This document shows, in pieces, positions 6,049 to 29,366 of a stretch of 64,000 nucleotides of DNA. This DNA comes from Flavobacterium sp. N502536 (GTDB lineage: Bacteria; Bacteroidota; Bacteroidia; Flavobacteriales; Flavobacteriaceae), in contig NZ_CP110011.1 of the NCBI RefSeq assembly GCF_025947345.1, positions 4,712,001 to 4,776,000 on the forward strand, written 5' to 3'. Each line of letters begins with the position of its first letter. Position 1 is the first letter of the stretch. The notes below the pieces were generated by a model. The model saw only the letters and a program-made list of their open reading frames with translations, ran no database searches and was not told where the DNA came from. A program made the translations under genes and the position numbers.

Positions 6049-7218
6049 TTGAAAAAACACCTTGTATTCACTGCGATTCTGGCCAGTAGTTTTGCCGCCC
6101 ATGCCCAAAATAAAATCATCACGGTTACCAACCCTCTGCCCCTGGACCGTGAATTTGAAACAATCGAACTGACCCCAAAAATCCTCGGTTTCCCTACCGG
6201 AACCAAACTCGAAAATTACATTATTAAAGAGATCGGCAGCAATACACTCTTAACCACTCAGGCGGTCGACAACGACGGTGACGGGACAATGGATCTTTTG
6301 TTGTTTCAGCCCGAAATAAAGGCTTCCTCTCATAAAGATTTTGAAATTTTAGTATCGGAGAATCCTCCAAAAGAAACAACAGTCAATTGTTACTCGAGAT
6401 TTGTTCCGGAACGAACAGATGATTATGCCTGGGAAAATAACAAAGTCGCTTTCAGAACGTATGGTCCGGTCGCCCAAAAAATGGTGGAAGACCAAATTCC
6501 CGGTGGAACGCTGACCAGCGGAATCGATGCCTGGCTCAAAAGGGTTGACTACCCCATTATTAACAAATGGTACGAAAAAGCAACTAACGGAACCGGAACG
6601 TATCACAAAGATACTGGCGAAGGTTTAGACAATTTTCACGTAGGTGACAGCCGTGGTGTAGGCGGAATTGCAGTTAAAGTTGATGACAAATACTATTTTT
6701 CTAAAAACTTCATCCGCTGGAAAACCATTACTACCGGCCCCATCAGAACCAGTTTTACACTGACTTATGCCAATTGGGATGCAAAAGGCAACAAAATTAC
6801 CGAATCGAAACTCATTAGTCTGGATTACGGAAGTTATCTTTCCCGCTTTGAAATTAGTATTACAGGAACAAAATCTGTGGCAGCAGGACTAACGCTACAC
6901 GACAAAAAAGGAACAATAGGAACCAATATTAAAGAAGGCTGGATAAGCTATTGGGAGCCCATTGACGATTCTGAAATCGGAACCGGAATTGTGGCACCAA
7001 AAAATACTTTATTAAGTTTTGACCACTATGTTACCGATAAAAAAGATCTGAGTAATCTTTACGGAAATATCCAAGTAAAAAACAACAAAACGATTTACTA
7101 CACAGGTTTTGGATGGAAAAAAGGAAGCCCCTTTCAGACTAAAAAAGACTGGGAAGCTTATTTAACTTCGTTCGCTAAAAAAATAAATAACCCTCTTTTG
7201 GTAAAGATCAAAAAGTAA
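6049..7218 (+). CDS. Secreted DUF4861 family protein
   Basis: 389 residues starting at a TTG codon: the only nearby ATG (6018) is out of frame and the TTG gives a clean signal peptide (KKHLVFTAILASSFAAHAQ, residues 2-20). The mature part begins IITVTNPLPLDREFETIEL and includes YHKDTGEGLDNFHVGDSRGVGG around residues 184-207, characteristic of DUF4861 proteins, which are frequent in uronic-acid PULs. The molecular role is unsettled; an enzyme acting on unsaturated uronyl oligosaccharides is a fair guess. It is followed by a strong terminator and lies convergent to the LacI gene. A second DUF4861 protein is encoded in the pectin locus at 43322. Confidence 0.75.
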   Translation: MKKHLVFTAILASSFAAHAQNKIITVTNPLPLDREFETIELTPKILGFPTGTKLENYIIKEIGSNTLLTTQAVDNDGDGTMDLLLFQPEIKASSHKDFEILVSENPPKETTVNCYSRFVPERTDDYAWENNKVAFRTYGPVAQKMVEDQIPGGTLTSGIDAWLKRVDYPIINKWYEKATNGTGTYHKDTGEGLDNFHVGDSRGVGGIAVKVDDKYYFSKNFIRWKTITTGPIRTSFTLTYANWDAKGNKITESKLISLDYGSYLSRFEISITGTKSVAAGLTLHDKKGTIGTNIKEGWISYWEPIDDSEIGTGIVAPKNTLLSFDHYVTDKKDLSNLYGNIQVKNNKTIYYTGFGWKKGSPFQTKKDWEAYLTSFAKKINNPLLVKIKK

Positions 7219-7247
7219 TTTTTGGTTAAGCCTTTAACCTTTTTTTC

Positions 7248-7284
7248 AAACCCGACAGGTTTCAAAAACCTGTCGGGTTTATTA
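7248..7284. terminator. Flavobacterial hairpin terminator (CCCGACAGGTTT type)
   Basis: AAACCCGACAGGTT (7248-7261) pairs perfectly with AACCTGTCGGGTTT (7267-7280). It lies between the convergent DUF4861 gene and the LacI gene and probably stops both. Nearly the same hairpin recurs at 40460-40490. Confidence 0.8.
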
Positions 7285-7308
7285 ATTAAAAAATCTACAG
7301 AACCGATT

Positions 7309-8352
7309 TTAAAAACCTCTCCTATTTGCCGGAAAATAGTTTTCTTTTAAAATAACATCCAGCGGAATATAATGCATATCTTCTACCGTTTCCTGCAAAA
7401 CTAATTTTTTATACAAATAGTGAATCCCCATATAACCCTGCTCTTCCGGTCTTTGATTGATTAAAAAATCAATTACCCCTTTGTTCAGGTATTCGATATT
7501 TTCTTTCAGTAAATCATAACCAATAATACGGATGCCTTTTATATGGTTCTCTTCTAAAAATCGGGCAACGATATAGGCTCTTGAATTTGGTACAAAAACA
7601 CTGTTAACACCTGCAAACATTTCCAAATTCAATTGATCGATTCCGGAATCTTTAATGGTTACTTCTGAAAATTTAAAATTCTTAAGATGCTCCTGATCTT
7701 TAAAAAACGAATGAAATCCGGCAATACGCTGCAAATAAACCGAGGTACTTTCAATCTCTCTGGTAATCTTAAAGACCAAAACCTGTCTTTCATTTTTTAC
7801 CGCAAAACTAATCAGTCTTCCTGCTAGATAACCACTCTGAAAAGCATGCTGCCCAATATAAGCATGAGCGGTATCCGAATCAATATTAGAGTCAATCATC
7901 ACCAAGGGAATATTGGTTCTTTTATATTCTTTCAGGAACTGAACAGACTCTTCATAGAAAATAGGCGCAAACAATAATCCGTCGCATTCAAAATCAAGTA
8001 CTTTTTTGACAGCCTCTTTGAAAGAGGCTGTATTAAAATCATAAAAGAAATAATCCAGCACAATGCCGAATTTACCAAACTCTATTGCTGCCTTTTCGAT
8101 ACCTTCAATCTGGCTTTTCCAGTATTCTAAATTTTCATACTGAGGTAAAAATACTGCAAAATGAAACTTTTTATTCAACGCCAGATTACTGGCCAGAATG
8201 TTTCGTTTGTAGCCATACTCCTCGATAATAGCATTTACTTTATCTACATTTTCCTGAGCTACCTGCCCACGATTATGGATAATTCTGTCAACAGTTCCGG
8301 GGGAAACGTTAGCCAGTTCCGCGATTTTTTTTATAGTTATGATATTGCTGAT
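7309..8352 (-). CDS. LacI-family regulator without a canonical start codon
   Basis: The annotated-looking start (TTG at 8178) would leave out the DNA-binding domain. Upstream in the same frame the sequence encodes TIKKIAELANVSPGTVDRII then HNRGQVAQENVDKV, a textbook LacI helix-turn-helix, reaching back to about 8352. The frame is closed by TGA at 8377-8379, and no ATG, GTG or TTG lies between that stop and the HTH, only ATC, ATA and similar codons. With the HTH the protein is about 345 residues, normal for LacI. The C-terminal part is a periplasmic-binding-protein-like sensor (HFAVFLPQYENLEYWKSQIEGIEKA split over its first strands). It is divergent from the yhcH-uxuB-uxuA operon and probably controls it. 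Coordinates of the start are uncertain. Confidence 0.75.
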   Translation of the reverse strand: MSNIITIKKIAELANVSPGTVDRIIHNRGQVAQENVDKVNAIIEEYGYKRNILASNLALNKKFHFAVFLPQYENLEYWKSQIEGIEKAAIEFGKFGIVLDYFFYDFNTASFKEAVKKVLDFECDGLLFAPIFYEESVQFLKEYKRTNIPLVMIDSNIDSDTAHAYIGQHAFQSGYLAGRLISFAVKNERQVLVFKITREIESTSVYLQRIAGFHSFFKDQEHLKNFKFSEVTIKDSGIDQLNLEMFAGVNSVFVPNSRAYIVARFLEENHIKGIRIIGYDLLKENIEYLNKGVIDFLINQRPEEQGYMGIHYLYKKLVLQETVEDMHYIPLDVILKENYFPANRRGF

Positions 8353-8442: not shown

Positions 8443-8450
8443 TAAAACAC

Positions 8451-8861: not shown

Positions 8862-9311
8862 ATGATTGTAGATTCATTACCAAACGCAGCCAAATATTAC
8901 AGCCTGCATCCTAGTTTTAAAAAAGCATTTGATTATGTAAACCAAAATGACATCAGCACTCTCGAAGAAGGTGTTTTTGAAATTGACGAGAACTTAAAAG
9001 TAATCGTAATTGTGGGCGAAGGCACCACTAAAGAAGAAAGTATAAAAGGGTTTGAATGTCACGATAAAAATATTGACATCCAAATTTCGATCAAAGGTCC
9101 GGAGATTTTTGCTTGGAAACCCCGAGAAAAATGCTTTAGTCCAAACGGAGATTATAATGACGAACGCGATGTTCGTTTCTTTTATGACAAACCGGATATG
9201 TATTTTGAATTACAAGAAAAACAGTTTGCGATTTTATTTCCCGAAGATGTTCATGCAGCAATGATTGGCGAAGGAGCACTTAAAAAAATTGTGATTAAAG
9301 TAAAAATTTAA
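8862..9311 (+). CDS. YhcH/YjgK/YiaL family (DUF386) sugar-handling protein
   Basis: 149 residues, cytosolic, the normal length for the family. Landmarks are LEEGVFEID, FECHDKNIDIQISIKGPE, then YFELQEKQFAILFPEDVHAAMI near the C-terminus; the E.H and H residues of these stretches form the metal site of the cupin-like fold in this family. Members sit in sialic-acid, uronate and other sugar operons and are thought to act on free sugar epimers or anomers, although the exact reaction is debated. It is the first gene of an operon with the SDR (44-base gap) and uxuA. Confidence 0.85.
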   Translation: MIVDSLPNAAKYYSLHPSFKKAFDYVNQNDISTLEEGVFEIDENLKVIVIVGEGTTKEESIKGFECHDKNIDIQISIKGPEIFAWKPREKCFSPNGDYNDERDVRFFYDKPDMYFELQEKQFAILFPEDVHAAMIGEGALKKIVIKVKI

Positions 9312-9355: not shown

Positions 9356-10168
9356 ATGGATTCAATATTTAATCTAAAAGGAAAAATTGCATTAATTACA
9401 GGTGGTGCCGGAGTACTAGGAAGTAATTTTGCCAACGTTTTGGCTAAACAGGGCGTTATTACGGGAATTGTTTCCCAATCTATCGAAAAAGCCAATGCGA
9501 CCGTAGCTGCCATAGAAAACAATGGCGGAAAAGCTTTTGCCATTCAGGCGAATGTTTTAAACCAGGAAGAACTGGAAAAAGCCAGAGATTTTATTGTCGA
9601 AAAATACGGCCGTCTCGACATTCTCATCAATGCTGCCGGAGGAAATATGCCGGGAGCAACCATCAGACCAGATCAGGCGATCTACGATTTACAGTCCGAA
9701 GATTTACAAAAAGTAATCGACCTGAACATAATTGGAACGATGTTGCCATCACAAGTGTTTTCAGAACTTTTTGCCCGACAGAAAGAAGGAAATATCATTA
9801 ATATCTCATCGGCATCCGCACAGCGGCCTTTAACGAGAGTAGTGGGATACTCCGCTTCAAAAGCTGCGATCGACAATTTCACGCAGTGGATGGCAGTCGA
9901 ACTGGCGTCAAAATATGGTGAAGGAATACGCGTCAATGCTATTTCACCCGGTTTTTTTATAGGCGAACAAAACCGATCTCTCTTACTAACTCCGGAAGGA
10001 AAACTGACTCCACGAGGCGAAAAAATAATCGAACACACTCCAATGGGAAGATTTGGAACACCCGAAGACATCGATGGAGCGCTTTTGTTTTTGTGCAGCG
10101 ACATGTCAAAATTTGTGACAGGAACGATTTTAAAAGTTGATGGAGGATTTGCCGCTACCAGTATTTAA
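9356..10168 (+). CDS. SDR-family fructuronate reductase (mannonate oxidoreductase)
   Basis: 270 residues, classical short-chain dehydrogenase. The cofactor loop is TGGAGVLGSNFA (residues 15-26), followed by NAAGG, ISSASAQRP and the catalytic YSASK; LKVDGGF closes the C-terminus. By itself the fold does not fix the substrate, but it sits directly before uxuA, an arrangement well known for SDR-type D-mannonate oxidoreductases in Bacteroidota and Bacilli. It should reduce fructuronate to mannonate with NAD(P)H. The 'GGNMPGATIRPDQ' segment after NAA is common to this subgroup. Confidence 0.85.
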   Translation: MDSIFNLKGKIALITGGAGVLGSNFANVLAKQGVITGIVSQSIEKANATVAAIENNGGKAFAIQANVLNQEELEKARDFIVEKYGRLDILINAAGGNMPGATIRPDQAIYDLQSEDLQKVIDLNIIGTMLPSQVFSELFARQKEGNIINISSASAQRPLTRVVGYSASKAAIDNFTQWMAVELASKYGEGIRVNAISPGFFIGEQNRSLLLTPEGKLTPRGEKIIEHTPMGRFGTPEDIDGALLFLCSDMSKFVTGTILKVDGGFAATSI

Positions 10169-10231: not shown

Positions 10232-11416
10232 ATGGAACAAACGTTAAGATGGTTCGGCCCAAATGACCCGGTTTCTTTACAAGATATTAAACAAACCGGA
10301 GCCACCGGAATTGTAACTGCATTACATCATATTCCCAACGGAGAAGTTTGGAGTATTGAAGAAATTTTAAAACGAAAAGTCGAAATTGAACATGAAAACG
10401 GTGATCCCAAAAAAGGAGCATCCGGATTAATCTGGTCAGTAGTCGAAAGTATTCCGGTACATGAAGACATCAAAAAACAAAGTGGAAATTACCTGCAATA
10501 CATTGAAAACTATAAGGAAAGCATTCTAAATCTGGCTTTGTGCGGCATCAAATGCATTTGTTACAATTTCATGCCCGTTTTAGACTGGTCCAGAACCGAC
10601 TTGGCCTATGAAGTTGCTGATGGCTCTAAAGCATTACGATTTGATATTAATGCCTTCGCAGCTTTTGAACTGTTTATTCTGAAAAAACCCGGAGCTCAAA
10701 AAGAATACTCCGCAGATCAAATTAAAAAAGCGACAAAATACTTTGAAACCATGACAGCGGCTGATAAAGTAAAACTACAGCAAAACATCCTGGCAGGGCT
10801 TCCGGGAGCCGAAGAAGCTTATAGCATAGAAGATTTTCTGATTACGTTAAGCGCTTATAATGAAATCGACCGAAAAACGCTAAAACAGAATCTTTTCTTC
10901 TTTTTAAAACAAATTATTCCAATCGCCGAAAGCAAAGGTGTTCTCATGGCCATACATCCTGACGACCCTCCCTACCCGATTCTCGGATTACCCAGAGTGG
11001 TAAGTACCGAAGAAGATTTAATCGATCTAATGGCTGCTGCCGATTCAAAATCAAATGGGTTTACGATGTGCACCGGTTCTTATGGAGTGAGGGCTGAGAA
11101 TGATTTGCCCGGTATCGTAAGACGTCATGGTGATAAAATGAACTTTATTCATCTCAGAAGCACCCAGAGAGATGCCGAGGGCAGCTTTTATGAAGCCAAC
11201 CATCTGGAAGGTGATGTAGACATGTATGAAGTTGTAAAAGCGATTCTGGAAGTTGAAAAAAGAAACAACAGCCAGTTGCCCATGCGTCCGGATCACGGAC
11301 ATCAAATGCTGGACGATTTAAACAAAAAAACAAACCCGGGATATTCTGCTATTGGCCGATTAAGGGGATTAGCCGAATTGAGAGGATTAGAAATGGGGAT
11401 TGTGAAATCTTTATAA
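10232..11416 (+). CDS. uxuA: Mannonate dehydratase
   Basis: 394 residues, full length for UxuA, a TIM-barrel, Mn/Fe-dependent enzyme that converts D-mannonate to 2-keto-3-deoxygluconate. Recognisable stretches are [20 protein letters not shown] at the N-terminus, [15 protein letters not shown] near residues 110-124, MAIHPDDPP (metal ligand region), [12 protein letters not shown] and MRPDHGHQM near the C-terminus. It follows the SDR by 63 bases in the operon yhcH-uxuB-like-uxuA. Together the three genes make the glucuronate-specific branch. A GlcA isomerase is missing here and would have to be UxaC at 58315. Confidence 0.95.
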
Positions 11417-11575: not shown

Positions 11576-13216
11576 ATGAATACCCAAACCATCCTGATTT
11601 GCTGCAGTTTTTTTGTGTCTGGCTTTGCATTTAGTCAACAGACTCCTAAAATACTAACCGATTCAAAAAACAATTACCTTCCTGACTTCAGTTATGCAGG
11701 ATATCATTTCGGCGAAAGCCCAATTCCGGAAACATCAGGAAAAGTCATTAACGCCACAGATTATGGCGTAAAAGCAAATGATGCGCTAGACGATTCAAAA
11801 GCCTTATTAAAAGCCATACAAGCAGCAAATGACGTTCAGGGCAATGTCATTTTACAACTGCCTGCCGGAAGAATTATTCTGAGTGCCGTTTTATACCTCG
11901 AAAGAAGCAATTTTATACTTCGCGGTATGGGGTCAGGTGAAAAAGGAACCGAAATTTACTGTCCGAGACCCATGATGTATTTCAAAGATCCGGAGTCTTT
12001 GGCAGAACTTCGTGAATATTTAACCACATTTGATAAAAGACAACGCGAACCCGAAAACAACGTCGACCTCCCCTTCTCTCAATATGCATGGTCTGGTGGA
12101 TTTATCTGGACCCAGATTCCGAATGAACGCGTTAAATCTTATCTCGATAAATATGAACCCATTTCGACCCCTTTGGCAAAGGTAAATTCCGGAACAATGG
12201 GCCAGCATATCATCACCGTTTCGGAAGTAAAAGGAATTAAAGTGGGCGACATACTCGAGTTGCAGCTGTTCAATAAAGACGGTGAAAATGGCGAAATCAT
12301 AAAAGACTTATATCAGGGAGCTCCTGTAAAACCGGGCTCTCATCACTGGAAATTCCCAAAACTGCCGATTGTCAGGCAACAGGTTGAAATCACTAAAATA
12401 GCAGGTTCGAAAATTACCCTCAAAACACCACTTACGATCAGCATAAAACCAAGCTATCAGGCGCAATTAGTGGAGTGGAAACATTTGAGCGAAGTGGGTA
12501 TCGAACAGCTGCGCTTCACCTTTCCGGATATTCCGAGAGTCGCACATCATGTAGAACCCGGAAACAATGCCCTATTCTTAACACGACTTTTCAACAGCTG
12601 GGTCAAAGATGTCGTCATAACGAATGCCGACAGCGGGATTCTGGCCGAAGAAATTGCCAGTGTTACCATTCAGGACATTGTTACCGATGGGCCTCATTTG
12701 TCGCATTATACCGTTACTTTGGGCGGTGTGCATAATGTATTGGTCAGGAATCTTAAAATTTATAACAAAGCGGTTCATCCTTTAAGTTTCAACACTTTTG
12801 CAACAAAAAATGTCTATCAAAACTGTGAGATTTTTGCCGATGCCCTTTTAGACCAGCATTCGGGAGCCAATCATCAAAACTTATTTGATCAGATCACGGT
12901 ACATATACGACCGGACAAAAACAACAGTTATTATTTGTTTGGCGGTGGAGGCGCCGATTACTGGAAACCTTCACATGCCCCGTTTAGTACATTTTGGAAT
13001 CTGAATGTTCAGGTTGAAAATCCGATCGAAACGACGCAACCCATTTTATTATACGGCATGAAAGATGGCCCATTTGCCCGAATTATAGGTGTAAATGGTA
13101 ACGCTAAATTTGAGGTAAAATATGAACCCGAGGCTTATATGGAGTTTCTGAATACGGCGATGGATAAAGTTCCTTCGTTATATGATTATCAATTGCAAAA
13201 GCGCTTGAAGAAATAA
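11576..13216 (+). CDS. Secreted parallel beta-helix protein, candidate polysaccharide lyase or hydrolase
   Basis: 546 residues with a signal peptide (residues 1-20, ending FAFSQQ). It starts the beta-helix with INATDYGVKANDALDDSKAL, the Pectate_lyase_3/GH28-related entry motif, then shows many short repeating strands (for example VRNLKIYNKAVHPLSFNTF and KNVYQNCEIF). A region at about residues 420-432 reads DQHSGANHQNLFDQ, giving candidate catalytic histidines. No standard GH28 motif (NTD, DD, HG, RIK) is present, so it is not a typical polygalacturonase. Its place between uxuA and the HTCS suggests it cuts a glucuronic-acid polymer. Specific family not recognised. Confidence 0.7.
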   Translation: MNTQTILICCSFFVSGFAFSQQTPKILTDSKNNYLPDFSYAGYHFGESPIPETSGKVINATDYGVKANDALDDSKALLKAIQAANDVQGNVILQLPAGRIILSAVLYLERSNFILRGMGSGEKGTEIYCPRPMMYFKDPESLAELREYLTTFDKRQREPENNVDLPFSQYAWSGGFIWTQIPNERVKSYLDKYEPISTPLAKVNSGTMGQHIITVSEVKGIKVGDILELQLFNKDGENGEIIKDLYQGAPVKPGSHHWKFPKLPIVRQQVEITKIAGSKITLKTPLTISIKPSYQAQLVEWKHLSEVGIEQLRFTFPDIPRVAHHVEPGNNALFLTRLFNSWVKDVVITNADSGILAEEIASVTIQDIVTDGPHLSHYTVTLGGVHNVLVRNLKIYNKAVHPLSFNTFATKNVYQNCEIFADALLDQHSGANHQNLFDQITVHIRPDKNNSYYLFGGGGADYWKPSHAPFSTFWNLNVQVENPIETTQPILLYGMKDGPFARIIGVNGNAKFEVKYEPEAYMEFLNTAMDKVPSLYDYQLQKRLKK

Positions 13217-13333
13217 TCTCGCAAAGTCGCAGAGTCGCAAGTTTTTTTAATGACATACAGTGAGGAAAGCCTTTGAACCTCTGCACCTTTGCACCTTTGA
13301 GTCTGTGAACCTTTGCACCTAAAAAAAACCGCT
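13217..13333. repeat. Intergenic repeat stretch before the HTCS gene
   Basis: It holds TCTCGCAAAGTCGCAGAGTC from about 13217 and a tandem of CTTTGCACCTTTG-like units (about 13271-13320). The second part resembles degenerate 'ACCTTTGCACC' repeats, a class related to those flanking the GH28 gene at 37007. No promoter stands out. Confidence 0.5.
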
Positions 13334-16300
13334 ATGAAATACAAAATAGCCTTTCTACTACTCCTTTTTATTTCCGGAAACATGCTTTCCCAAAATAAAT
13401 ACCGTCTCAAAAACATCTCGACTACTGACGGGCTTTCGCAGAGTTCTGTTATTGTAATTCATCAGGATAAACTGGGACAAATGTGGTTGGGTACCCGTGA
13501 CGGACTCAATAAATACGATGGCAGTAAATTCACCATTTTCAGGAATGATGTCACCAACAAACATTCGATCAGCAACAATGACATTTTATCCATTGAAGAA
13601 GACAATACAGGAAAAATCTGGGTGGGGACCTACAACGGACTCAACTGTTACGATCCTGTCAATAATCGCTTTACCCGATATTTGCACACCAAAACCAATC
13701 ATACCATAAGCAGTAATGCCATTTGGTCGATTAAAGAAATTGGTGACGAAATGTGGTTTGGAACTTCAAAAGGAATCACTCTTTACAATAAAAAAACCAA
13801 GCTGTTCACTTCTCTTTTTCACTCAGACACAGACGATACAACAGTACCCAGCAACAATATCATCACCATTTTAAAAAGCAAAAAAGGCGAAATCTGGATT
13901 GGAACCACCAAAGGTTTGTGCAAACTTATCAGCAGAAAAAAAGGAAAATATATCTTTAAAAACTATCCTTTAAATTCCATAGACCTTCTGAATGTTGTGG
14001 CCCTTACAGAAGATGTTTCGGGCAATTTGTGGGTGGGAACAAAAAACAAAGGTCTTTTAAAACTAGACCAAAACTCCAACGCATTTGTCTCCTTTTTACC
14101 TGATGAAAAATACAGCGAAATCAATACGGATATCCGTTCTCTGGCAATCGACAAACAAGGTTCGTTATGGATTGGTGCCTACGACGGAATCTATATTTTA
14201 GGAAAAGACAAAAGCATTCAAAAAATAAACAGCACGAACAATAGCAACGGAATTGATAAGGTAAAATCGATATTTATTGACCGAAAAGGTTCCGTTTGGA
14301 TTGGCTGTTACTACAAAGGCGTCAACATCTGGGACATTTCAAATGTTAATTTTTCCAACTACAATCAGAATTCTAAAAAAATCCCCATGAGTTTTGATGT
14401 TGTGAGTTCGATTGTGGCCGATAAAAATCACAATGTCTATTTTGGAACAGAAGGCGGCGGCATCACGGTTTTTAACCGAAATACCGAAGCGGTAGGTTAT
14501 ATCAACAGTCAAAGCGGCAAAAACGTCAAAAACGATATCAAATCCATGTGTCTTTCTGCTGATGTTTTGTGGATAGGAACTTTCTCGAAAGGGCTGTCTG
14601 CTTACAACATTAATTCAAAAAAAATAGAAGACCATCGAATTGCGCCCGCGTTAAACACTTTACTCAAAGAATCCGGTGTCTATTCGATCAAAGCTGAGGG
14701 CAACGGTATCCTTTGGATTGGGACTTTTGGAAAAGGCCTGATTCGGTACGACACCTTTTCTAAAACCTTTGAAGTCATCGGAAATGATACTGCCCAGCCT
14801 GAATATTTAACCAACAACATTGTGCGAACGATGCTGGTGGATGAAAAAAAAGGAATCTGGGTTGGAACTCAAAACGGATTGAATTACATTCCATTGCAAC
14901 ATTCCACTTCAAAAAAATACAGCATCAAACATTACTTTTTTGATTCTTCTTCCCTGTCCGGAGACGATATCCTAACCTTATTCCAAGACAGTCAAAAGAA
15001 AATCTGGGTAGGAACAAAAGCCAAAGGCCTTCATTATTTTGATGGAAAAAAATTCTCTAAAATCAATTTAAGAGTTGGAAACACCATCATTACTTCCATA
15101 CATTCCATCCTTGAAGACGATGACAAAAACCTATGGATCAGTACCAATCAGGGCATCATAAAATACAATACCGTTCAGAAAACAGTTGTAATCTACGATC
15201 AGAAAGACGGTTTGGCTAGCAATGAATTTAATGATAACTCGGCCTTAAAACTCGATTCTAATAAATTCTATTTCGGGAGCCCATCGGGTGTAACCTTTTT
15301 TGATGCCAAAAAAATCTCTCTGAACCGCTATGCACCTCAGGTATTAATTACCAATTTGAAAATCAAAAACGAAACCATACATCCCAATGATACTCTTGGT
15401 ATCCTCGAAAAAAGCATTACCTACACCAAAACCATAACGCTCGATTACGACAAAGCCAATTTCTCCATTGATTTTGCGATTCCCAACTACATTCGATCCA
15501 AAAACAATCAATACAGCTATCGTCTGTTGGGACTGGAAAACAACTGGACCACAACCAAAAGTTCCGAAGCTATTTTTGCCATTCAGAACCCAGGAACCTA
15601 TGTTTTTGAAGTTCGTGGGGCCAACAATGATGGTGTCTGGAATAAAACTCCAACGACCTTAACAGTTATCGTAAAACCGGCTCCCTGGCGCAGTATCTGG
15701 GCATTTTTACTCTACGGAATTTTAATCGGACTGGGAATATACGGCTTAATCTGGATCATGAAATCTAAAGCTGCACTAAAACAAAAACTGGAGCTAGAAT
15801 ATCTCGAAACCAAACGCATCGAGGAAAACAACCTTGCCAAACTCGATTTCTTCACCAATATTTCGCATGAGTTCAGAACACCTTTGACCTTAATTTTGGG
15901 CCCTTTACAGCAAATTCTGTCCAACTATAACGGTACAAATGAAATGTATAAAAAGTTACTGGTTATTGAAGGAAGTGCCAATCATCTTCTGAGCCTGATC
16001 AATCGCCTGATGGATTTTAGAAAACTCGAAAATCATCAGGTAACACTCGAATCAGCGGAAGGAAATATTGTAAAATTCACCAAAGAGATCTTTCTATCAT
16101 TTATCGAATATGCAAAAGACGGCGGTTACCACTACACCTTCGAAGCAGCAGATGAAGAAATCCTTCTGTACTTTGACCGCTATAAACTGGAACGTGTTTT
16201 TTACAATCTAATTTCCAATGCCTTTCGATACACCCCAAAAGGTGGAAACATCCATCTTAAAATAACACACGACCATGAAAACCTTTTTATAGCCGTAGAA

Positions 16301-17639: not shown

Positions 17640-20600
17640 ATGTTTACAAACCAAAATTTAAAATCGCTTAAATGGTGTTTGCTGGTCTATTTTTTACTGG
17701 CGAATATTGTGATGAACGCACAGGAAAGAAAAGTCACAGGAAAAGTTACTTCCGCTGAAGACTTGCTTGGACTTCCGGGTGCTAATGTGTATATCAAAGG
17801 ATCTTCAGTGGGTGCATCAGCAGATATGGATGGAAACTATACTGTTATCGTTTCTGAGAAAAATGCCGTATTAGTCTTCAACTTCATAGGATATCAAACT
17901 GTCGAAATTCCAGTAGGCAATAAAACCGTAGTCAATGTCAGCTTAAAACCGGATACTAAAAATCTCGATGAAGTAGTCGTTGTGGGTTATGGTACCCGTA
18001 AAAAGAGCGACATCACGGGTTCCGTATCTTCGGTGACAGCCAAAGAACTAACCGCTTATCCGTTATTAAATGCAGAACAGGCATTACAAGGCCGTGCTGC
18101 GGGAGTATCGGTACAATCCAATAATGGTGGCGAACCGGGTGCTCCCGTAAAAATCAGGGTTCGTGGCGGTACTTCTATCAATGCTAGTGGAGATGCGCTT
18201 ATCGTGGTAGACGGTTTTGCCGGTGCATCGATGCCCGCCCCTCAGGATATTGCTTCGATCGAGATTTTAAAAGATGCTTCGGCTACTGCCATTTACGGAT
18301 CTAGAGGTTCAAATGGAGTTATCATGGTTACCACAAAAAAAGGAAAACCAGGAGCTCCTGTTATCGAATTCAGTAATTCTACCTCCGTGCAGTCTGTCAA
18401 CAATAAATTGCATCTGCTAAATGCAGATCAATTTGTAGCCTACCGAAAAAGTTTCACCACACACACTGCGGCAGGTTCGGATACAGACTGGCAGGACGTT
18501 ATTTATCGTAACGGATTAATTTCTAACTCCCAATTGTCATTTTCAGGCGGGTCAGACAAAATCAAATACTATGTTTCTGGAAATTATTTCAATCAAAATG
18601 GAGTTGTAATTAACTCCGGAATTGACAAATACACCATTGTAAGTAATCTGGAAGCCGATTTGAGCGACAAGTTTAAAGTGGGTCTGAATTTATTTCAAAG
18701 CAAACAAAATAAAGAAGGAATCATCAGCCAGACCAGTGCGGGAGGAACAGGAGCCGCAGGTGTAATTGCCGCTGCTTACCGTTTTATGCCCGACAAAGGA
18801 ATTTATAATGCCGACGGAACTTTTACCACCACAGCACCTATTGGAGATGATATCGACAATCCGTACGCGACAGCTATGGAAAACATACTGGAGGTAATCA
18901 ACATTACCAACAGAAGTAACTTCTTTGCATCGTATCAACTTACCAAAGATCTGAACTTCAAAACCACTTTAGGGTTGACCGAATCCAATTCACAAACCGG
19001 AAGATATACTCCATCCACTTTAATTGCGGGAAAAAACATCAAAGGAGAAGCTTCTGTAAACAATACCAGATTCTCTTCTTTCTTAACTGAAAATTACCTG
19101 ACTTTCAAACGTGAAATCGTCGAAAAAGGAATCCTTACGGTACTTGGAGGTTACTCCTATCAAAAAAACAGAAACGAAAACTCCTATGCCGCTGCAAGAG
19201 GTTTTTTAACAAACACCAACTCCTATCATAACTTAGGTGCCGGAACCGTATTCTTAAAACCCGATTCGGGATTGTCAGAGACAGAACTGATCTCGGCTTT
19301 CGGAAGGTTAAACTTTGATTATGCCGATAAATACCTGTTCACTTTTACAGCCCGTAGAGACGGTTCGTCAAGCTTTAGTAAAAATTACAAGTACGGAACC
19401 TTCCCTTCTGGAGCAATTGGCTGGAATATCGGTAAGGAAAACTTTCTGAAAGACAGCAAAACGGTTTCAAACTTTAAATTGAGAGCCAGTTACGGAGCCA
19501 CCGGAAACCCATCGATCGGAGCTTATTCGACACTTTCCCGATTTTCTGAAATTTATGATGTAAGTGGAGACGTGATTGTCAATGCGGTTCAGCTGACTTC
19601 TTTAGACAATCCGAACTTAAAATGGGAGACCTCCTACCAACAGGATTACGGAATTGATCTCGGTTTATTTGATAACCGAATCAGTATCACAGCCGATTAT
19701 TACAAAACAATTACCAAAGATCTATTGTTCAACCGACCTTTACCGGGCGTTTCAGGAATTGCTTCTCAACTTCAAAATGTTGGAGAATTAGAAAATAAAG
19801 GATGGGAATTAGGCATCAATACCAAAAACTTTACCGGAGCTGATTTTACATGGTCAACGAGTTTTAATATCTCTTCCAACAAAAACAAAGTACTGAAATT
19901 AGCCGACGACAAAGATCTTTTAATCAACTCTACGCCGGGTCACTTCCTTGCGACCGATTCTCAAATTTTAAGAGTCGGACAACCTGTTGGTTCTTTCTTC
20001 GGATTTGTTTACGACGGTGTAATTCAGCAGGGAGAAACCGTTCTGCCTGGGAATTTTGAGACAATAGCCGGAGGAGAAAAATTCAGAGATGTAAACGGTG
20101 ACGGCAAACTGGATTCAAGCGACAAAACCATCATAGGAAACCCAAATCCTGATTTCATCTTCGGACTTAATAACGATTTCACGTATAAAAATCTTGATCT
20201 TAATATTTTCTTTCAGGGTTCAGAAGGGAATCAGATTTTAAACTATACGCTGATGGAACTGGCCTCAGGAAACAATAATGCTACAACCGAAGTTTTGGAT
20301 GCCTGGACACCAACTCACACCGATACTAATGTGCCTATTAATGCGGCAAGAACGAAAAGAGTTACTTCAAGATTTGTGTACGATGCAAGCTACATTCGTT
20401 TGAAAAACATCTCTTTAGGTTATAGTCTGGATGATAAAATTGTATCCAAAATGGGATTGAGTAAAGTTCGTTTTTACATCAGTGCTCAAAACTTATGGAC
20501 GATTACCAATTACCCGGGTTCTGATCCGGAAGTAAACTACCTGAACGATACCAACGCCAGAAGCAACACCAACTTAGGATTGGATTATGGAAGCTATCCG

Positions 20601-20642
20601 AATGTGAGAACGTTTACACTGGGCTTTAATTTAAAATTTTAG
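17640..20642 (+). CDS. SusC-family TonB-dependent outer-membrane transporter (PUL1)
   Basis: 1000 residues. The start at 17640 is preferred because an overlapping ATG at 17635 runs out of frame. It has a signal peptide (ending NIVMNAQ, about residue 28), a carboxypeptidase-regulatory-like domain (KVTGKVTSAEDLLGLPGANVYIKG), the DEVVVVGYGT TonB-box region, a plug domain (ALQGRAAGVSVQSNNG; IEILKDASATAIYGSRGSNG) and a 22-strand barrel ending in FNLKF. It imports large oligosaccharides across the outer membrane with the SusD partner encoded 121 bases downstream. Substrate: inferred glucuronic-acid-containing glycan from the flanking enzymes. Confidence 0.95.
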   Translation: MFTNQNLKSLKWCLLVYFLLANIVMNAQERKVTGKVTSAEDLLGLPGANVYIKGSSVGASADMDGNYTVIVSEKNAVLVFNFIGYQTVEIPVGNKTVVNVSLKPDTKNLDEVVVVGYGTRKKSDITGSVSSVTAKELTAYPLLNAEQALQGRAAGVSVQSNNGGEPGAPVKIRVRGGTSINASGDALIVVDGFAGASMPAPQDIASIEILKDASATAIYGSRGSNGVIMVTTKKGKPGAPVIEFSNSTSVQSVNNKLHLLNADQFVAYRKSFTTHTAAGSDTDWQDVIYRNGLISNSQLSFSGGSDKIKYYVSGNYFNQNGVVINSGIDKYTIVSNLEADLSDKFKVGLNLFQSKQNKEGIISQTSAGGTGAAGVIAAAYRFMPDKGIYNADGTFTTTAPIGDDIDNPYATAMENILEVINITNRSNFFASYQLTKDLNFKTTLGLTESNSQTGRYTPSTLIAGKNIKGEASVNNTRFSSFLTENYLTFKREIVEKGILTVLGGYSYQKNRNENSYAAARGFLTNTNSYHNLGAGTVFLKPDSGLSETELISAFGRLNFDYADKYLFTFTARRDGSSSFSKNYKYGTFPSGAIGWNIGKENFLKDSKTVSNFKLRASYGATGNPSIGAYSTLSRFSEIYDVSGDVIVNAVQLTSLDNPNLKWETSYQQDYGIDLGLFDNRISITADYYKTITKDLLFNRPLPGVSGIASQLQNVGELENKGWELGINTKNFTGADFTWSTSFNISSNKNKVLKLADDKDLLINSTPGHFLATDSQILRVGQPVGSFFGFVYDGVIQQGETVLPGNFETIAGGEKFRDVNGDGKLDSSDKTIIGNPNPDFIFGLNNDFTYKNLDLNIFFQGSEGNQILNYTLMELASGNNNATTEVLDAWTPTHTDTNVPINAARTKRVTSRFVYDASYIRLKNISLGYSLDDKIVSKMGLSKVRFYISAQNLWTITNYPGSDPEVNYLNDTNARSNTNLGLDYGSYPNVRTFTLGFNLKF

Positions 20643-20763: not shown

Positions 20764-22275
20764 ATGAAAAAATATATAGCTTTTCTTTTTCTGGGAATAT
20801 TCGCTTTTGGATGTTCCGACTTAGAAGAAAAACCGGTGGGAATCATTCGTCCGGAAAACTTCTTCAGCAATACAGATGACCTGCAGGCTGCTGTAAACGG
20901 AGCTTTTGCCAACATTGCCCATAATAATTATTGGGGAAGAGAATTTACAATCGCTTTAATGTTGCGCGATGACATGGCCGATATTGGCGACAGAACCACT
21001 CAGGCTGCCCGTATCGATGTGAACGATTTTTCGATGAACGACACCAATGCACTGGTGGCCAACTTCTGGCCGCAATCGTACATCATTATCACCGCAGCCA
21101 ATCAGGCAATCGAAGGCGCTAAAAAAACACCAGGTGATCCCGCCAAAGTAAACGCCATTGTGGCTCAGGCTTATTTTGCAAGAGCTTTTGCCTACTATCA
21201 TTTAGTTCGCATCTTTGGAGATATTCCCTACATCGACTTTGTGGTAAATGACGTATCGCAGGTAAATTCCCTAAGCAGAACCAAACAAGCCGATGTATAT
21301 CCGAAAATTATTGCCGATCTGGAATTTGCCAAACAATGGCTGGAAGACAAACCAAAAGTAAAAGCTGTTCCCGGAAAAGGTACTGCTGCGGGTTATCTGG
21401 CCTCTGTTTATTTGACCCTTGGAAACTATCAAAAAGCCTACGACGAGTCCAAATATGTTATAACCAACGAAGCTAAGTTTGGTTTAGGACTGGACGCTGA
21501 TTTTCAGGATTTGTTTAATGCCACAAAAACAGCGGCACTTAAAGAACCTTTATTTACAGTTGATTTCAACAACTTAACTTCCGGAAATTACGGTCAGGAT
21601 TATACTGCATTTTTCACCGGTTCTCTAAAAGACGAAACCTACAGCTACGGACAAGGATTTTCGGTAGCCGTTCCTTCTTTAAAAGTATTCAACGACTGGG
21701 ACAAAAGAGATTACCGAAGAGCGGTAAGTTTTGACACCATCATCAGAAAAAAAGTGGGCAATAATTTGCAAATTTTTCCTTCGAGTGATAACGAAAAAGC
21801 GCCACGTCCGCATATTGCCAAATACTATCGTTTTCCCGGAAAAGCGGGTGCCAACGGAAGAACTTCACAGCACAATTACATCACGATGCGTTTTGCCGAG
21901 GTACTCCTGACAGCAGCCGAAGCCTTAAATGAAATTACTCCCGGAACCGCAGAAGCAGACGGATATGTAAACCGCGTACGCGCCAGAGCCAGAAACAAAG
22001 CCGGAAAACTGGTTTCCTTTCCTGCCAATGTAACACCGGGTTTATCTCAATCTGCTTTCAGAAAAATGGTTATCGATGAACGCAGACTAGAATTGGCTTT
22101 TGAATATGTAAGATGGTACGACATCAAAAGACTCCAAAATGGTCCGGAAGTATTTGGTCCGACTGGTTTTGAACCGCATGCTAATTTTGATCCCAACAAG
22201 GATTATTTATTTCCATTACCGGGCACTGAGTTAGCGATCAACCCGAACTTAAAACCAAACAATCCCGGTTACTAA
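20764..22275 (+). CDS. SusD/RagB-family surface glycan-binding lipoprotein (PUL1)
   Basis: 503 residues. The lipobox FAFGCSDLEE puts the lipidated cysteine at residue 17. TPR-like helices follow (AQAYFARAFAYYHLVRIFGDIPY, the classic SusD stretch) and the family C-terminus RRLELAFEYVRWYDIKRLQ ... FPLPGTELAINPNLKPNNPGY is intact. It forms the lid of the SusC channel and binds the glycan at the cell surface. It is cotranscribed with susC and probably with the downstream enzyme genes, although a 380-base repeat-filled gap follows. Confidence 0.95.
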   Translation: MKKYIAFLFLGIFAFGCSDLEEKPVGIIRPENFFSNTDDLQAAVNGAFANIAHNNYWGREFTIALMLRDDMADIGDRTTQAARIDVNDFSMNDTNALVANFWPQSYIIITAANQAIEGAKKTPGDPAKVNAIVAQAYFARAFAYYHLVRIFGDIPYIDFVVNDVSQVNSLSRTKQADVYPKIIADLEFAKQWLEDKPKVKAVPGKGTAAGYLASVYLTLGNYQKAYDESKYVITNEAKFGLGLDADFQDLFNATKTAALKEPLFTVDFNNLTSGNYGQDYTAFFTGSLKDETYSYGQGFSVAVPSLKVFNDWDKRDYRRAVSFDTIIRKKVGNNLQIFPSSDNEKAPRPHIAKYYRFPGKAGANGRTSQHNYITMRFAEVLLTAAEALNEITPGTAEADGYVNRVRARARNKAGKLVSFPANVTPGLSQSAFRKMVIDERRLELAFEYVRWYDIKRLQNGPEVFGPTGFEPHANFDPNKDYLFPLPGTELAINPNLKPNNPGY

Positions 22276-22656: not shown

Positions 22657-23838
22657 ATGAATAGAGTTAGTTTCTTTACTTTAATCCTTGGGTTTGCATT
22701 GCTCACAACCGCATGCAAATCCGGGATTAATTCGCAACCAAAAAATACCTCAGCAGTAGACCACCTTCTCGAAACCCGATACAAAATGCTGCTGGATTAT
22801 CCGGTTGATTCGATGGCGATGCCCAGAAGCATGACCCTCAAAACCAATCTCATTAGAAAAGTTCCTTCAAGAGACTGGACAAGCGCATTCTTTGCCGGAA
22901 ATCTTTGGCAATTGTATCGCTTAACAGGAAATACAGACTATAAAAAACAAGCCGAAAAATGGACGCCTTTCAGTAAAAAAGAAAGCGTAAACAGAGGTTC
23001 CCACGATGTTGGTTTTAAAGTCTATTGCAGTTATGGAGAAGCGCTAAAAGTGGAAAACAAACAAGAATACAAAGATGTAATTGTTAAAGGTGCTGAAACT
23101 TTATGCAGCCGTTTTGACCCAAAAGTCGGAGCAATTCGTTCCTGGGATTTCAACAAAGAAATTTGGGACTATCCAGTGATCATTGACAATATGATGAACC
23201 TTGAATTGCTTTTTGAAGCCAGCAGATTATCCGGCAATAAAAAGTATCAGGACATCGCCATCCAACACGCCAATACCACTTTAAAAAATCAGTTTAGAGC
23301 AGACAACAGCTGTTATCATGTTATTGATTACAATCCGGTTTCGGGAGCCGTAAGAAAAAAAACGACCCTGCAGGGATATAACGACGATTCTGTTTGGGCA
23401 CGCGGACAAGGCTGGGCCGTTTACGGATTCACCATGTCGTATCGTTATACACAAGATCCGGCCTACCTCAAACAGGCCGAAGCCACAGCACAATTTTTTA
23501 TGCCCCATAAAAACCTGCCGGAAGACGGTATTCCGTATTGGGATTTTAAAGATCCGGGCATTCCAAATTCGGCACGTGATGTTTCTGCGGCAACCATTAT
23601 GGCTTCAGCTTTATATGAATTGTATGGTTATACTAAAAACGACCGTTATCTGGCTTTCGCCAACAAAATAATCGCGTCTTTACATTCCGAAAAATACCTG
23701 TTAGATGCCAAAATAAACGCCCCTTTCCTATTGAATCACAGCACCGGAAACTGGCCAAAACACGACGAAATCGACGAACCTATTATCTATGCCGACTATT
23801 ATTTCCTGGAAGCATTGTTAAGACAAAAAGCCTTATAA
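22657..23838 (+). CDS. GH88 unsaturated glucuronyl hydrolase
   Basis: 393 residues, a lipoprotein (lipobox LLTTACKSG, lipidated cysteine about residue 20). The (alpha/alpha)6 barrel family GH88 removes the 4,5-unsaturated uronic acid left at the non-reducing end by lyases. Both catalytic aspartates are visible: D117 in SHDVGF and D177 in VIIDNMMNLELL. DDSVWARGQGWAVYGFTMSY is another signature stretch. The presence of GH88 means that a lyase acts in this locus. Its product, a 5-keto-4-deoxyuronate, would go through KduI/KduD. It is separated by 3 bases from the first GH2 gene. Confidence 0.9.
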   Translation: MNRVSFFTLILGFALLTTACKSGINSQPKNTSAVDHLLETRYKMLLDYPVDSMAMPRSMTLKTNLIRKVPSRDWTSAFFAGNLWQLYRLTGNTDYKKQAEKWTPFSKKESVNRGSHDVGFKVYCSYGEALKVENKQEYKDVIVKGAETLCSRFDPKVGAIRSWDFNKEIWDYPVIIDNMMNLELLFEASRLSGNKKYQDIAIQHANTTLKNQFRADNSCYHVIDYNPVSGAVRKKTTLQGYNDDSVWARGQGWAVYGFTMSYRYTQDPAYLKQAEATAQFFMPHKNLPEDGIPYWDFKDPGIPNSARDVSAATIMASALYELYGYTKNDRYLAFANKIIASLHSEKYLLDAKINAPFLLNHSTGNWPKHDEIDEPIIYADYYFLEALLRQKAL

Positions 23839-26259: not shown

Positions 26260-26413
26260 ATAAATCTCGCAAAGGCGCGAAGGCGCAAAGTTTTTTATGC
26301 CACTGATTACACAGATTAAAATGATTTTTGAAGATTAAATTTAAAACTCTGTCTAAAACAAAAAATACGCATTACATTGAAATAGAACAAAATTGCAAAC
26401 TAAAAACTCAATT
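26260..26413. repeat. CGCAAAG-type repeat between GH2 and the secreted lyase
   Basis: TCTCGCAAAGGCGCGAAGGC from about 26264 followed by ATGCCACTGATTACACAGAT is the same class of degenerate repeat as at 11424 and 42975. Nothing else is visible in this stretch. Confidence 0.5.
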
Positions 26414-27541
26414 ATGAAAAATACACTATTTTACAAAATTGCCTTAGTACTAATCAGTTTTGCGGGCCATGCACAAGTCACTTTAAATGCCGATGGTCCG
26501 GGTGGCGTTGGAACTTATGAACTCATAACAAATGCACTGGCTCCCGGTACAGCAAATGGAGCTATCGAGGCACCCGATGCTATACATCCCGGTTTTGGAC
26601 CTCATATTACCGAAGTTTTTGATGCGGATCTGAATAAAAATGTTTTTGTATTTCACGCACATGTGAGTAACACTCCTCCAGACAATGAACCCGTAGCCGG
26701 GAAAACGGACAGACAGCGTGTAGAAATTAAATCGTACAACCCCTCACTCGATAATTTAAAAGGAATAATCGGTGAAACCGTGCGATACAAATGGCGGTTT
26801 AAAATTCCTGTTGGATTTAAACCAACCACCAGTTTTACGCACATCCATCAGGTTAAAGCTGTAGATGGTGACGACGACGATCCGCTTTTTACGATTACCC
26901 TCAGAAAACTTTCAACCGGGGCAACACGTTTAGAATTACTTTATGACGAAAATGCTGCAACGGCAACCACTAAATACGCTTTACCTGCCTTATCTTTATT
27001 TGAGGGTGTGTGGGTGGAAGCTACCGAAACGATCAAAATTGGCAGCAATGGAACCTATGCTATGGTCATCAAAAAAGTCAGCGATGGAACTGTGTTGGTC
27101 GACTACAGCAATTCAAATGTGCAAACGATCCGCCCTGCTTATACGGCCGCCAACGGAACTGTTTATGCAGCCAACTCTTTTATCAGACCCAAATGGGGAA
27201 TTTACCGCAGCCTCACTGATATTGCCAACATGAGAGACGAAACCCTTCTTTTCTCCGATTTCAGTATTGAGGAATTGACTACTTTATCCGCCAAAGAGCA
27301 GTCAAAAGCAACAGTTGATATCCAATTCCCCAATCCGGTAGGCGACAAACTCGAACTTTCAGAAGCTGTTGTAAATCAGTATAGCGGAATAAGGATTTAT
27401 GACAATACCGGTAAACAGGTCGTTTCTTACGACACAATTCCCGAAACCATTAATGTCTCGTCTCTACCATCAGGACTTTACCTTATAAAATTCAAAAAAG
27501 AAAATACCTTTTCAAAAGGTGTAAAAATGATTAAAAAATAA
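26414..27541 (+). CDS. Secreted heparin-lyase-I-like protein with T9SS sorting domain
   Basis: 375 residues from the ATG at 26414 (a TTG 21 bases upstream only extends the tail). A signal peptide ends AGHAQ. The body carries KTDRQRVEIKSYNPS, VRYKWRFKIPVGFKPTTSF and THIHQVKA, a pattern I associate with the PF14099-type jelly-roll lyases (heparin lyase I and glucuronan-lyase relatives). The last about 75 residues (FPNPVGDKLELSE ... SSLPSGLYLIKFK) are a type IX secretion C-terminal domain, so the enzyme is exported to the cell surface or medium. It could be the polymer-cutting lyase of PUL1. Linked 10 bases before the second GH2. Exact family and specificity inferred. Confidence 0.75.
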   Translation: MKNTLFYKIALVLISFAGHAQVTLNADGPGGVGTYELITNALAPGTANGAIEAPDAIHPGFGPHITEVFDADLNKNVFVFHAHVSNTPPDNEPVAGKTDRQRVEIKSYNPSLDNLKGIIGETVRYKWRFKIPVGFKPTTSFTHIHQVKAVDGDDDDPLFTITLRKLSTGATRLELLYDENAATATTKYALPALSLFEGVWVEATETIKIGSNGTYAMVIKKVSDGTVLVDYSNSNVQTIRPAYTAANGTVYAANSFIRPKWGIYRSLTDIANMRDETLLFSDFSIEELTTLSAKEQSKATVDIQFPNPVGDKLELSEAVVNQYSGIRIYDNTGKQVVSYDTIPETINVSSLPSGLYLIKFKKENTFSKGVKMIKK

Positions 27542-27551
27542 AATAGTATCA

Positions 27552-29366
27552 ATGAAAAAGCTAATCACTTTAGTGCTACTCACCTCATCCTTTTTTGGAG
27601 TAGCACAAAACCTGATCTCCAATGTTCCAAACCGAAATACGACCTCGTTAAACGGAGTCTGGAATTATATTGTCGATCCATACGAAACGGGCTATTACAG
27701 CTTTCATCACGACGAATACGACAAACAGACCAAACCTTCCAATGCGGCTTTTTTTAATAACTATCATGTCGTAAACAAACAGGAACTAATTGAATATGAT
27801 TTCGACAAATCCCCCAAAATCAACATTCCGGGAGACTGGACTTCACAGGTTCCGGAATTGAAATATTACGAAGGAAATGTCTGGTTCAAGAAATCTTTCG
27901 ATTATAATTTACAGGCCAAAAAACGTCTTTTTCTGTATTTTGGAGCCATTAATTACAAAGCCGATGTTTATTTAAACGGGAAGAAATTAGGAAGACACGA
28001 AGGAGGTTTTACGCCATTTAATTATGAAATCACTTCGATTGTAAAACCAAAAGACAACTATTTAGTCGTTAAAGTCGACAATACACGCCACAAAGAAGAT
28101 GTTCCGACAATCAATACCGATTGGTGGAATTACGGCGGAATCACCCGTGACGTAACGTTAATCGAAGAGAATGAATCGTTTGTAGAAGATTACCACATTC
28201 AGCTCAAAAAGGGCAATGCTGCTTTGATTTCCGGTTTTGTAAAGATCAACAACTTCAATTCGGCACAAAATAACATAAGCCTTTCGATTCCCGAATTAAA
28301 GATTCATTATAAAGGAAAAATTGGTGCTGACGGAATCCTAAACTTTGAAATTCCGGCAAAAAAAATCTCGTACTGGGCTCCTGAAAACCCAAAATTATAC
28401 GAAGTAACAATCGATTATAACGGCCAGCAATTAAAAGATACCATTGGTTTCAGAACCATTGAAACTGAGGGAGACAAAATCCTCCTGAATGGAAAACCAA
28501 TCTTTCTGCGCGGAATTTCGATTCATGAAGAAAATGCAAAAGGTGGTCGTGCCCATTCGGAAGAAGATGCTTTACGTCTTTTAAACTGGGCAAAAGAACT
28601 GGGCTGCAACTATGTACGTCTCGCCCATTATCCACACAACGAAAATATCATCAGAGTAGCCGATAAAATGGGAATCATGGTTTGGGAGGAAATTCCGGTG
28701 TACTGGACAGTTGAATTCACCAATACAAACACCTACAAAAATGCCGAAGAGCAGTTGACAGCAGCCATTACGAGAGATAAAAACAGAGCCTGCATCATCA
28801 TCTGGTCGATGGCCAATGAAACTCCAATTTCGGATGCCCGAAATACATTTATCAAAAATCTGGTGGATCACACCAAATCTTTAGACAATACCCGACTCAT
28901 CAGTGCGGCTTTACTGACGCAAACCGGAGCAGACGGTTTTGGAACAATCAATGACGAAATTGGTCAATATCTGGATCTTATTTCCTTCAATCAGTATTTA
29001 GGCTGGTATGGCGGAAAACTGGAAAACGCCGAAAAGATTTTCTGGAAAACCAAATACAACAAACCCGTGATTGTCTCTGAATTTGGAGGTGATGCCAAAC
29101 AAGGTCTGCACGGTGAAAAAAACGAACGATGGACAGAGGAGTATCAGGAATACCTGTACATTCAAAATCTGAAAATGATCGAAAAAATACCACATCTGAG
29201 CGGCTTAAGTCCGTGGATTCTGGTTGATTTCAGATCGCCAAAACGACTTTTACCCGGAATTCAGGACGGATACAACCGAAAAGGATTGATCTCCAATGAT
29301 GGAAATAAAAAGAAAGCCTTTTATATTATGCAGGATTGGTATGCAAAGAAGAAAAAAGAATATTAA
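27552..29366 (+). CDS. GH2 beta-glucuronidase
   Basis: 604 residues, the size of beta-glucuronidases, with a signal peptide ending GVAQ. Domains: jelly roll (WFKKSFDYN ... YLNGKKLGRHEGGFTPF), Ig-like, TIM barrel (LNGKPIFLRGISIHEEN). Acid/base E423 in SMANETP, nucleophile E510 in VSEFGGD. N575-R-K577 in YNRKGLISND aligns well with the NKKGIF uronate-recognition motif of the E. coli enzyme, so removal of terminal beta-glucuronic acid is likely. It is the last gene of the PUL1 enzyme operon, 10 bases after the lyase-like gene, and probably releases free glucuronate for the uxu branch. Confidence 0.85.
   Translation: MKKLITLVLLTSSFFGVAQNLISNVPNRNTTSLNGVWNYIVDPYETGYYSFHHDEYDKQTKPSNAAFFNNYHVVNKQELIEYDFDKSPKINIPGDWTSQVPELKYYEGNVWFKKSFDYNLQAKKRLFLYFGAINYKADVYLNGKKLGRHEGGFTPFNYEITSIVKPKDNYLVVKVDNTRHKEDVPTINTDWWNYGGITRDVTLIEENESFVEDYHIQLKKGNAALISGFVKINNFNSAQNNISLSIPELKIHYKGKIGADGILNFEIPAKKISYWAPENPKLYEVTIDYNGQQLKDTIGFRTIETEGDKILLNGKPIFLRGISIHEENAKGGRAHSEEDALRLLNWAKELGCNYVRLAHYPHNENIIRVADKMGIMVWEEIPVYWTVEFTNTNTYKNAEEQLTAAITRDKNRACIIIWSMANETPISDARNTFIKNLVDHTKSLDNTRLISAALLTQTGADGFGTINDEIGQYLDLISFNQYLGWYGGKLENAEKIFWKTKYNKPVIVSEFGGDAKQGLHGEKNERWTEEYQEYLYIQNLKMIEKIPHLSGLSPWILVDFRSPKRLLPGIQDGYNRKGLISNDGNKKKAFYIMQDWYAKKKKEY

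Follow-up and report, generated by a model that had tools for sequence, protein, structure and literature searches.

A polysaccharide utilisation locus of Flavobacterium sp. N502536 predicted to target an unsulfated glucuronic acid polymer via lyases

The window analysed here, i.e., a 64,000-nucleotide stretch of the 5.05 Mb genome of Flavobacterium sp. N502536 (G000, contig C1, positions 4712001–4776000), contains at 6049–29366 a SusC/SusD pair with a regulator and carbohydrate-active enzymes, and is thus a polysaccharide utilisation locus (PUL). With a probability of roughly 60%, this locus (PUL1) is predicted to serve the lyase-first degradation of an unsulfated polymer whose backbone contains 4-linked D-glucuronic acid (GlcA), with beta-1,4-glucuronan or a heteropolymer rich in glucuronan as the most likely target. 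Pure beta-1,4-glucuronan would be the single likeliest, if tentative, substrate, and fungi, algae and bacteria are candidate sources of the polymer. Domain and profile scans covered the 15 proteins encoded at 6049–31599 (13 in the locus and two downstream; Table 1), and recovered every gene of the original prediction (i.e., yhcH, a short-chain dehydrogenase/reductase (SDR) gene, uxuA, a hybrid two-component system (HTCS), SusC/SusD, GH88, two GH2, a jelly-roll protein, a parallel beta-helix protein and DUF4861) in its place, while adding a minus-strand LacI-family regulator that had been overlooked. The claim that sulfatase, rhamnosidase and GH28 are missing was likewise borne out, since none of these domains was found in the 15 proteins. 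Moreover, the proposal of an unsulfated, GlcA-based target opened by lyases is supported by the relatives of both lyase-like proteins, by GH88, by both GH2 proteins, and by UxuA together with the D-mannonate oxidoreductase.

As far as can be judged from their sequences, the GH88 and both GH2 proteins fit the release of glucuronate. The closest solved structure to the GH88 protein was GH88 3wiw, followed by the unsaturated glucuronyl hydrolase 2zzr, and an assignment to GH154 was dropped after this Protein Data Bank (PDB) comparison. GH88 enzymes are described as taking off the unsaturated uronate generated by lyases, with release of 5-keto-4-deoxyuronate (PMC12269599). For both GH2 proteins the nearest structures were of the beta-glucuronidase type, with strong full-domain matches to 6d1p/6d7j and 6d1n. 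In alignments with solved relatives, both also retained the N-x-K that we take to be the carboxylate motif. The 604-residue GH2 protein was nearly as close to 7vqm (AqGalA), a beta-galacturonate enzyme according to its depositors that shares the N-x-K, so that this GH2 may conceivably be specific for galacturonic acid instead. Neither protein reached the curated NCBIfam beta-glucuronidase cut-offs (NF050095 and NF007538; at best 372.8 of 950 and 277.4 of 544 bits). A literature search returned one unrelated entry for BuGUS-2/3 and none for AqGalA.

The roles of the beta-helix and jelly-roll proteins had been declared impossible to name, which proved too strong, since their relatives are PL29-like and PL13/PL20-like, respectively, and both are thus related to uronate-lyase families rather than to families acting on non-uronic substrates. 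The PL29 model built around BT3328 (NF058554) matched the beta-helix protein with 101.7 bits, below its curated cut-off of 1100 bits, aligning residues 198–544 with model positions 463–829 of 840; the long N-terminal part included in the model is missing from the protein. A match above this cut-off was found in one genome among 395 of the phylum, and the beta-helix protein is ~23% identical to it. Nevertheless, a 10-row alignment including the family-level PL29 match and three intermediates displayed homology to PL29 over the full lyase domain. Its 36 invariant columns include SYAGY, a pair of neighbouring histidines, SW and, near the C-terminus, SL...QL..R. BLASTP with a PL29-like Flavobacterium protein scored 132 bits (4.2e-36, in an 18-sequence set), and in a tree, to which long-branch warnings apply, the window beta-helix group stood on a branch apart from PL29. 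Structure prediction of the protein reached a pLDDT of 50. We regard the beta-helix protein as a distant homologue, PL29-like and not PL29 proper, and predict it to be an endo-lyase. BT3328 itself is presented as a surface lyase acting on hyaluronan and chondroitin sulfate (PMC6994673).

The jelly-roll protein starts at the ATG at 26414, as originally proposed, since aligned homologues begin there and the TTG at 26393 is only the start of the mechanically called open reading frame (ORF). Its match to PF14099 (27.2 bits) remained below the gathering score of 29.9, while many of its listed homologues carry a precomputed PF14099 annotation. Fold comparison matched the jelly-roll fold of 2zzj/3imn: PL20 (glucuronan lyase) and PL13 (heparinase I) tied in the ranking, GH131 came within about 1 Z unit, and the protein was accordingly assigned to none of these families. 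PDB sequence searches returned matches to its type IX secretion system (T9SS) tail and weak unrelated ones at E values of 0.085 and above. In comparison with PL20 glucuronan lyase, the jelly-roll protein is only 15% identical, gives no sequence-profile match, is bacterial and carries the T9SS tail. The locus probably holds two new lyase subfamilies, one of the beta-helix and one of the jelly-roll type.

UxuA and the D-mannonate oxidoreductase are the putative branch for saturated GlcA. PUL1 holds this mannonate branch only, and the rest of the pathway would need copies elsewhere or the neighbouring pectin-type PUL at 37007–62992, which contains GH28, pectate lyase/pectinesterase and two GH88-family (PF07470) proteins, as well as UxaC, a PfkB kinase, a KDPG/KHG aldolase, KduI and an SDR adjoining KduI. 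In the mechanism that we propose, for which localisation, activities, substrate and order of steps are all predicted, the jelly-roll lyase with its T9SS tail would, where present, cut the polymer extracellularly by beta-elimination. The resulting oligosaccharides would be imported by SusC/SusD, sensed by the HTCS and shortened by the PL29-like beta-helix lyase in the periplasm. GH88 would then take the unsaturated uronate left by the lyases off the non-reducing end, and the two GH2 enzymes would peel off the exposed saturated GlcA. Free GlcA would pass via UxaC (of the pectin-type neighbour), the mannonate oxidoreductase and UxuA to 2-keto-3-deoxygluconate, and the unsaturated unit would be handled by the KduI/KduD-like genes of the same neighbour.

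The order of the genes was compared across related loci, of which the best 80 of 138 were kept and among which F. collinsii was the nearest named species (88–99% for the locus proteins). Loci with a prematurely ending contig are excluded from the counts (downstream, 3 of 80; upstream, 5 or 6 of 80). Downstream of the beta-helix gene, 79 of the 80 loci carried the HTCS gene (in the other the contig ends), and SusC came directly after HTCS in 62 of the 77 with enough sequence; upstream of the beta-helix gene, UxuA was present in 72/75 loci, and SDR and YhcH in 70/74 each. Because the positions of HTCS, SusC and UxuA recur in this way, the locus is no chance assembly. Among 20 genomes extended by a further 20 kb, the core around the beta-helix gene (HTCS, GH88 and the large GH2) was complete in all 20, 11 had an orthologous SusC/SusD pair and 12 had the small GH2. 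Of the nine lacking orthologous SusC/SusD, G024 and G025 had another pair further downstream, with a SusC about 31% identical. At a distance of about 145 kb, G024 moreover contained a 66% SusD and a 64% SusC, which none of the remaining reference genes adjoined. Eight close genomes without SusC/SusD at the locus (G013, G015, G016, G018 and G020–G023) contained only SusD paralogues of 31–32%. Close Flavobacterium loci in which the HTCS/GH88/GH2 core is kept and SusC/SusD is absent include L123, L125 and L127–L130, whose genomes offer only such 31–32% SusD paralogues. The beta-helix gene occurred in 83 of 398 genomes of the genus (own genome included), i.e., about a fifth.

Several observations limit how precisely the substrate can be assigned. 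Firstly, the jelly-roll gene was present in only 15 of 69 close relatives (G001–G023 and G429–G474, counted at E ≤ 1e-30, with loci L082 and L051 left out of the G429–G474 search and nine distant genomes, six plus three, counted apart). In these 15, it started 14.6–16.2 kb downstream of the start of the beta-helix gene (14.8 kb in the window); these distances were worked out by hand and take the contigs searched in G429–G474 to be those of the fetched loci, which the numbers fit. The conserved core can therefore occur apart from the secreted lyase and, in some genomes, lacks an importer of its own. Secondly, one distant locus (L134) has three sulfatases and two chondroitinase-B-family proteins. 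Thirdly, the nearest outside relatives of the beta-helix protein (41%; L179:9540–11210 and L180:9106–10758), possibly a further lyase group, sit in polyuronate-lyase clusters, with that of L179 being of the alginate type. The original proposal of a GlcA-based polymer stands in view of the gene set, and is qualified by these relatives among polyuronate lyases or sulfatases. Several polyuronates are thus served by these protein families, while the core genes found in the window indicate GlcA; glucuronan, other GlcA-rich polymers and hyaluronan/heparosan are not separable by sequence.

The Bacteroides thetaiotaomicron PUL for chondroitin sulfate, dermatan sulfate and hyaluronan, with BT3328 (PL29), BT3348 (GH88) and BT3334 (HTCS) (PMC6994673), has in common with the window locus the lyase-first logic, one SusC/SusD pair, an HTCS, a GH88 and a homologous beta-helix lyase. 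Unlike for the window locus, the text consulted names PL8 lyases as well as sulfatases for that PUL, but neither GH2 nor UxuA. This likeness (PMC6994673), the homology of the beta-helix protein to PL29, the PL13-like fold tie of the jelly-roll protein, and the hyaluronan activity reported for RiPL38 (PMC13027841) all favour an unsulfated glycosaminoglycan-like target (hyaluronan, heparosan, chondroitin and bacterial capsules included), on which the PL29-like enzyme would act as BT3328 does and GH88 would split unsaturated disaccharides. Such a target is nevertheless unlikely, since domain scans of the locus found no hexosaminidase, N-acetylhexosamine-catabolism, PL8, PL12 or sulfatase domain (PL8 was not searched genome-wide), and since two GH2 enzymes and a mannonate branch would be superfluous if unsaturated disaccharides were the end product. 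Moreover, near 0.43 Mb the genome encodes a sulfatase/heparinase-II-III/SusCD cluster separate from PUL1, and a Flavobacterium cluster of PL29-like, GH88 and sulfatase-like genes (in G022 and G025) holds a different beta-helix paralogue, about 25% identical. Sulfated glycosaminoglycans were rejected, given that separate cluster and the lack of a sulfatase domain in the locus. The cluster near 0.43 Mb (G000:C1:433568–447932; L182) comprises heparinase II/III, SusC/D, a sulfatase and a DUF4962 lyase-like protein, and probably serves a sulfated uronate glycan.

A GlcA-containing backbone of mixed composition, e.g., a bacterial exopolysaccharide or fucose-bearing glucuronan in which the lyases would cleave at GlcA and degradation would be completed elsewhere by other enzymes, overlaps with the preferred glucuronan interpretation and is a less probable candidate. 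It is suggested by one cluster in G287 (L177) that combines a PL29-like protein, GH88-family proteins, two PF14099-type proteins (one above and one below the Pfam cut-off) and three alpha-L-fucosidases, and of which the target is perhaps a fucosylated GlcA polymer, as well as by the SASA and BD-FAE type esterases that accompany the jelly-roll genes of distant relatives. In the window locus, however, the only glycosidase domains besides GH88 are those of the two GH2 proteins, both uronate-directed by look.

Distant relatives also bear on alginate. A jelly-roll homologue was present in all six distant genomes (34–56% identity; on the contig of the core in two), and in five of the six a PL38-type gene directly followed the large GH2. 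The sixth (G027, Aureibaculum; L133 13187–14405, i.e., G027:C12:219004–220222) has two short PL38 remnants flanking a GntR-type gene, indicating that the PL38 gene has decayed there. Genome-wide lyase searches were made in 30 genomes, the six distant ones included, for PF07940, for PF14592 and with one PL38 protein; this PL38-type protein (of L131), which matches 3nfv and 8bdq, had no match in the window genome or in 23 close relatives. Two reports place in PL38 the glucuronan lyases CUL-I and TpPL38A together with enzymes that cleave alginate or hyaluronan (PMC9029943, PMC13027841). The alginate lyases of PL38, the polyuronate-lyase surroundings of the 41% beta-helix relatives (of alginate type in L179), and the occurrence of PF14592 and PF07940 genes, one of PL17 type, in the vicinity of the core of G024 and G025 might mean that alginate or mixed polyuronates, instead of GlcA polymers, are the substrates of the core enzymes. 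In G024, UxuA, UxaC, a major facilitator superfamily transporter and the PL17-type gene lie within 10 kb upstream of the core. We consider this reading improbable: PF14592 had no match in 21 of 24 close genomes, own genome included, the two PF07940 proteins of the own genome are of other architectures, and domain scans of the locus detected none of the PL6, PL7 and PL17 domains (genome-wide searches did not extend to PL7). UxuA, mannonate oxidoreductase and beta-glucuronidases are not known to take part in alginate breakdown. Alginate was accordingly rejected for the window locus, given the missing PL6/PL7/PL17 domains and the lack of a PF14592 match in the genome.

The side chains of arabinogalactan or gums, also named in the original prediction, would require GH2 to trim terminal GlcA with little attack on a backbone, which two GH2 proteins with N-x-K and the GlcA catabolism of the locus could accommodate. 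This is very improbable, since no rhamnosidase, GH43 or arabinofuranosidase domain scored above its cut-off among the 15 proteins, and since lyases and GH88 need a 4-linked uronate. In the absence of matching domains in the locus, arabinogalactan was rejected.

PUL1 is not a new kind of system, lyase-based PULs being known, while its lyase subfamily is probably new. Glucuronan has been reported from green algae (PMC4765187), and glucuronan lyases from fungi and bacteria. Among the literature matches listed, no title or abstract opening presented a Bacteroidota PUL shown to use glucuronan, and the literature collection searched made no mention of DUF4861 or DUF4955. The core, whose beta-helix gene occurs in roughly one in five of the genus genomes sampled, provides, with two probably new lyase subfamilies, named proteins for this gap in glucuronan PULs. 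A bolder proposal, i.e., a widespread bacterial glucuronan utilisation system in which the DUF4955 protein founds a new poly-glucuronic-acid lyase family or subfamily parallel to PL29, which acts on hyaluronan/chondroitin, and to the 41% relatives of the polyuronate-lyase clusters, is speculative and somewhat doubtful.

Table 1. Genes of PUL1 and associated genes in the window.
Feature	Position	Strand	Evidence
DUF4861 protein, BT_3233 family, signal-peptide-like N-terminus	6049–7218	+	PF16153 291 bits; NF058564 407 bits (cut-off 320)
LacI-family regulator	about 7309–8340	-	domain scan; listed ORF 7309–8178 without helix-turn-helix (HTH)
YhcH/YjgK/YiaL (DUF386)	8862–9311	+	PF04074
SDR, predicted D-mannonate oxidoreductase	9356–10168	+	NF006132 374.7 bits (cut-off 281)
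UxuA, predicted mannonate dehydratase	10232–11416	+	PF03786 429 bits
Beta-helix protein with DUF4955, 546 aa, distant PL29 (BT3328) relative, predicted endo-lyase	11576–13216	+	PF12708, PF16315; NF058554 3.2e-29
HTCS sensor/regulator	13313–17425	+	domain scan
SusC	17640–20642	+	domain scan
SusD	20764–22275	+	domain scan
GH88, predicted unsaturated glucuronyl hydrolase	22657–23838	+	Pfam 47.7 bits (cut-off 26.6); 3wiw 3.1e-87
GH2, beta-glucuronidase-like, 805 aa	23842–26259	+	GH2 domains; N-x-K at 586–588
Jelly-roll lyase-like protein, T9SS tail, PL20/PL13-like fold	26414–27541	+	domain scan and fold comparison
GH2, beta-uronosidase-like, 604 aa	27552–29366	+	GH2 domains; N-x-K at 575–577
DUF2911 protein, downstream neighbour, PUL membership uncertain	29537–30100	+	domain scan, conservation
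Beta-lactamase-fold protein, downstream neighbour, PUL membership uncertain	30199–31599	+	domain scan, conservation
Pectin-type locus genes able to complete catabolism: KDPG/KHG aldolase, PfkB kinase, UxaC, KduI, SDR next to KduI (KduD-like by position)	56516–61376	-	

The two downstream neighbours (29537–31599) are often conserved alongside the locus. A second DUF4861 protein is encoded at 43322–44287, inside the pectin-type PUL, and more copies adjoin KduD-like genes in loci L170, L173 and L176. DUF4861 may thus be a general accessory of uronate pathways; a sequence search of the PDB with it gave no match. One of the related loci (L078) lies on a contig titled as a Klebsiella pneumoniae metagenome-assembled genome, a label that is probably wrong for this Bacteroidota locus.

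Finally, the HTH of the LacI-type regulator lies in frame upstream of its listed ORF and begins with ATC ATA AC., without an ATG, GTG or TTG at that place. The stretch was located in 70 sequences, 68 of which retain this ATC-ATA, and translation of the regulator may start at AUA or AUC or involve a different mechanism.

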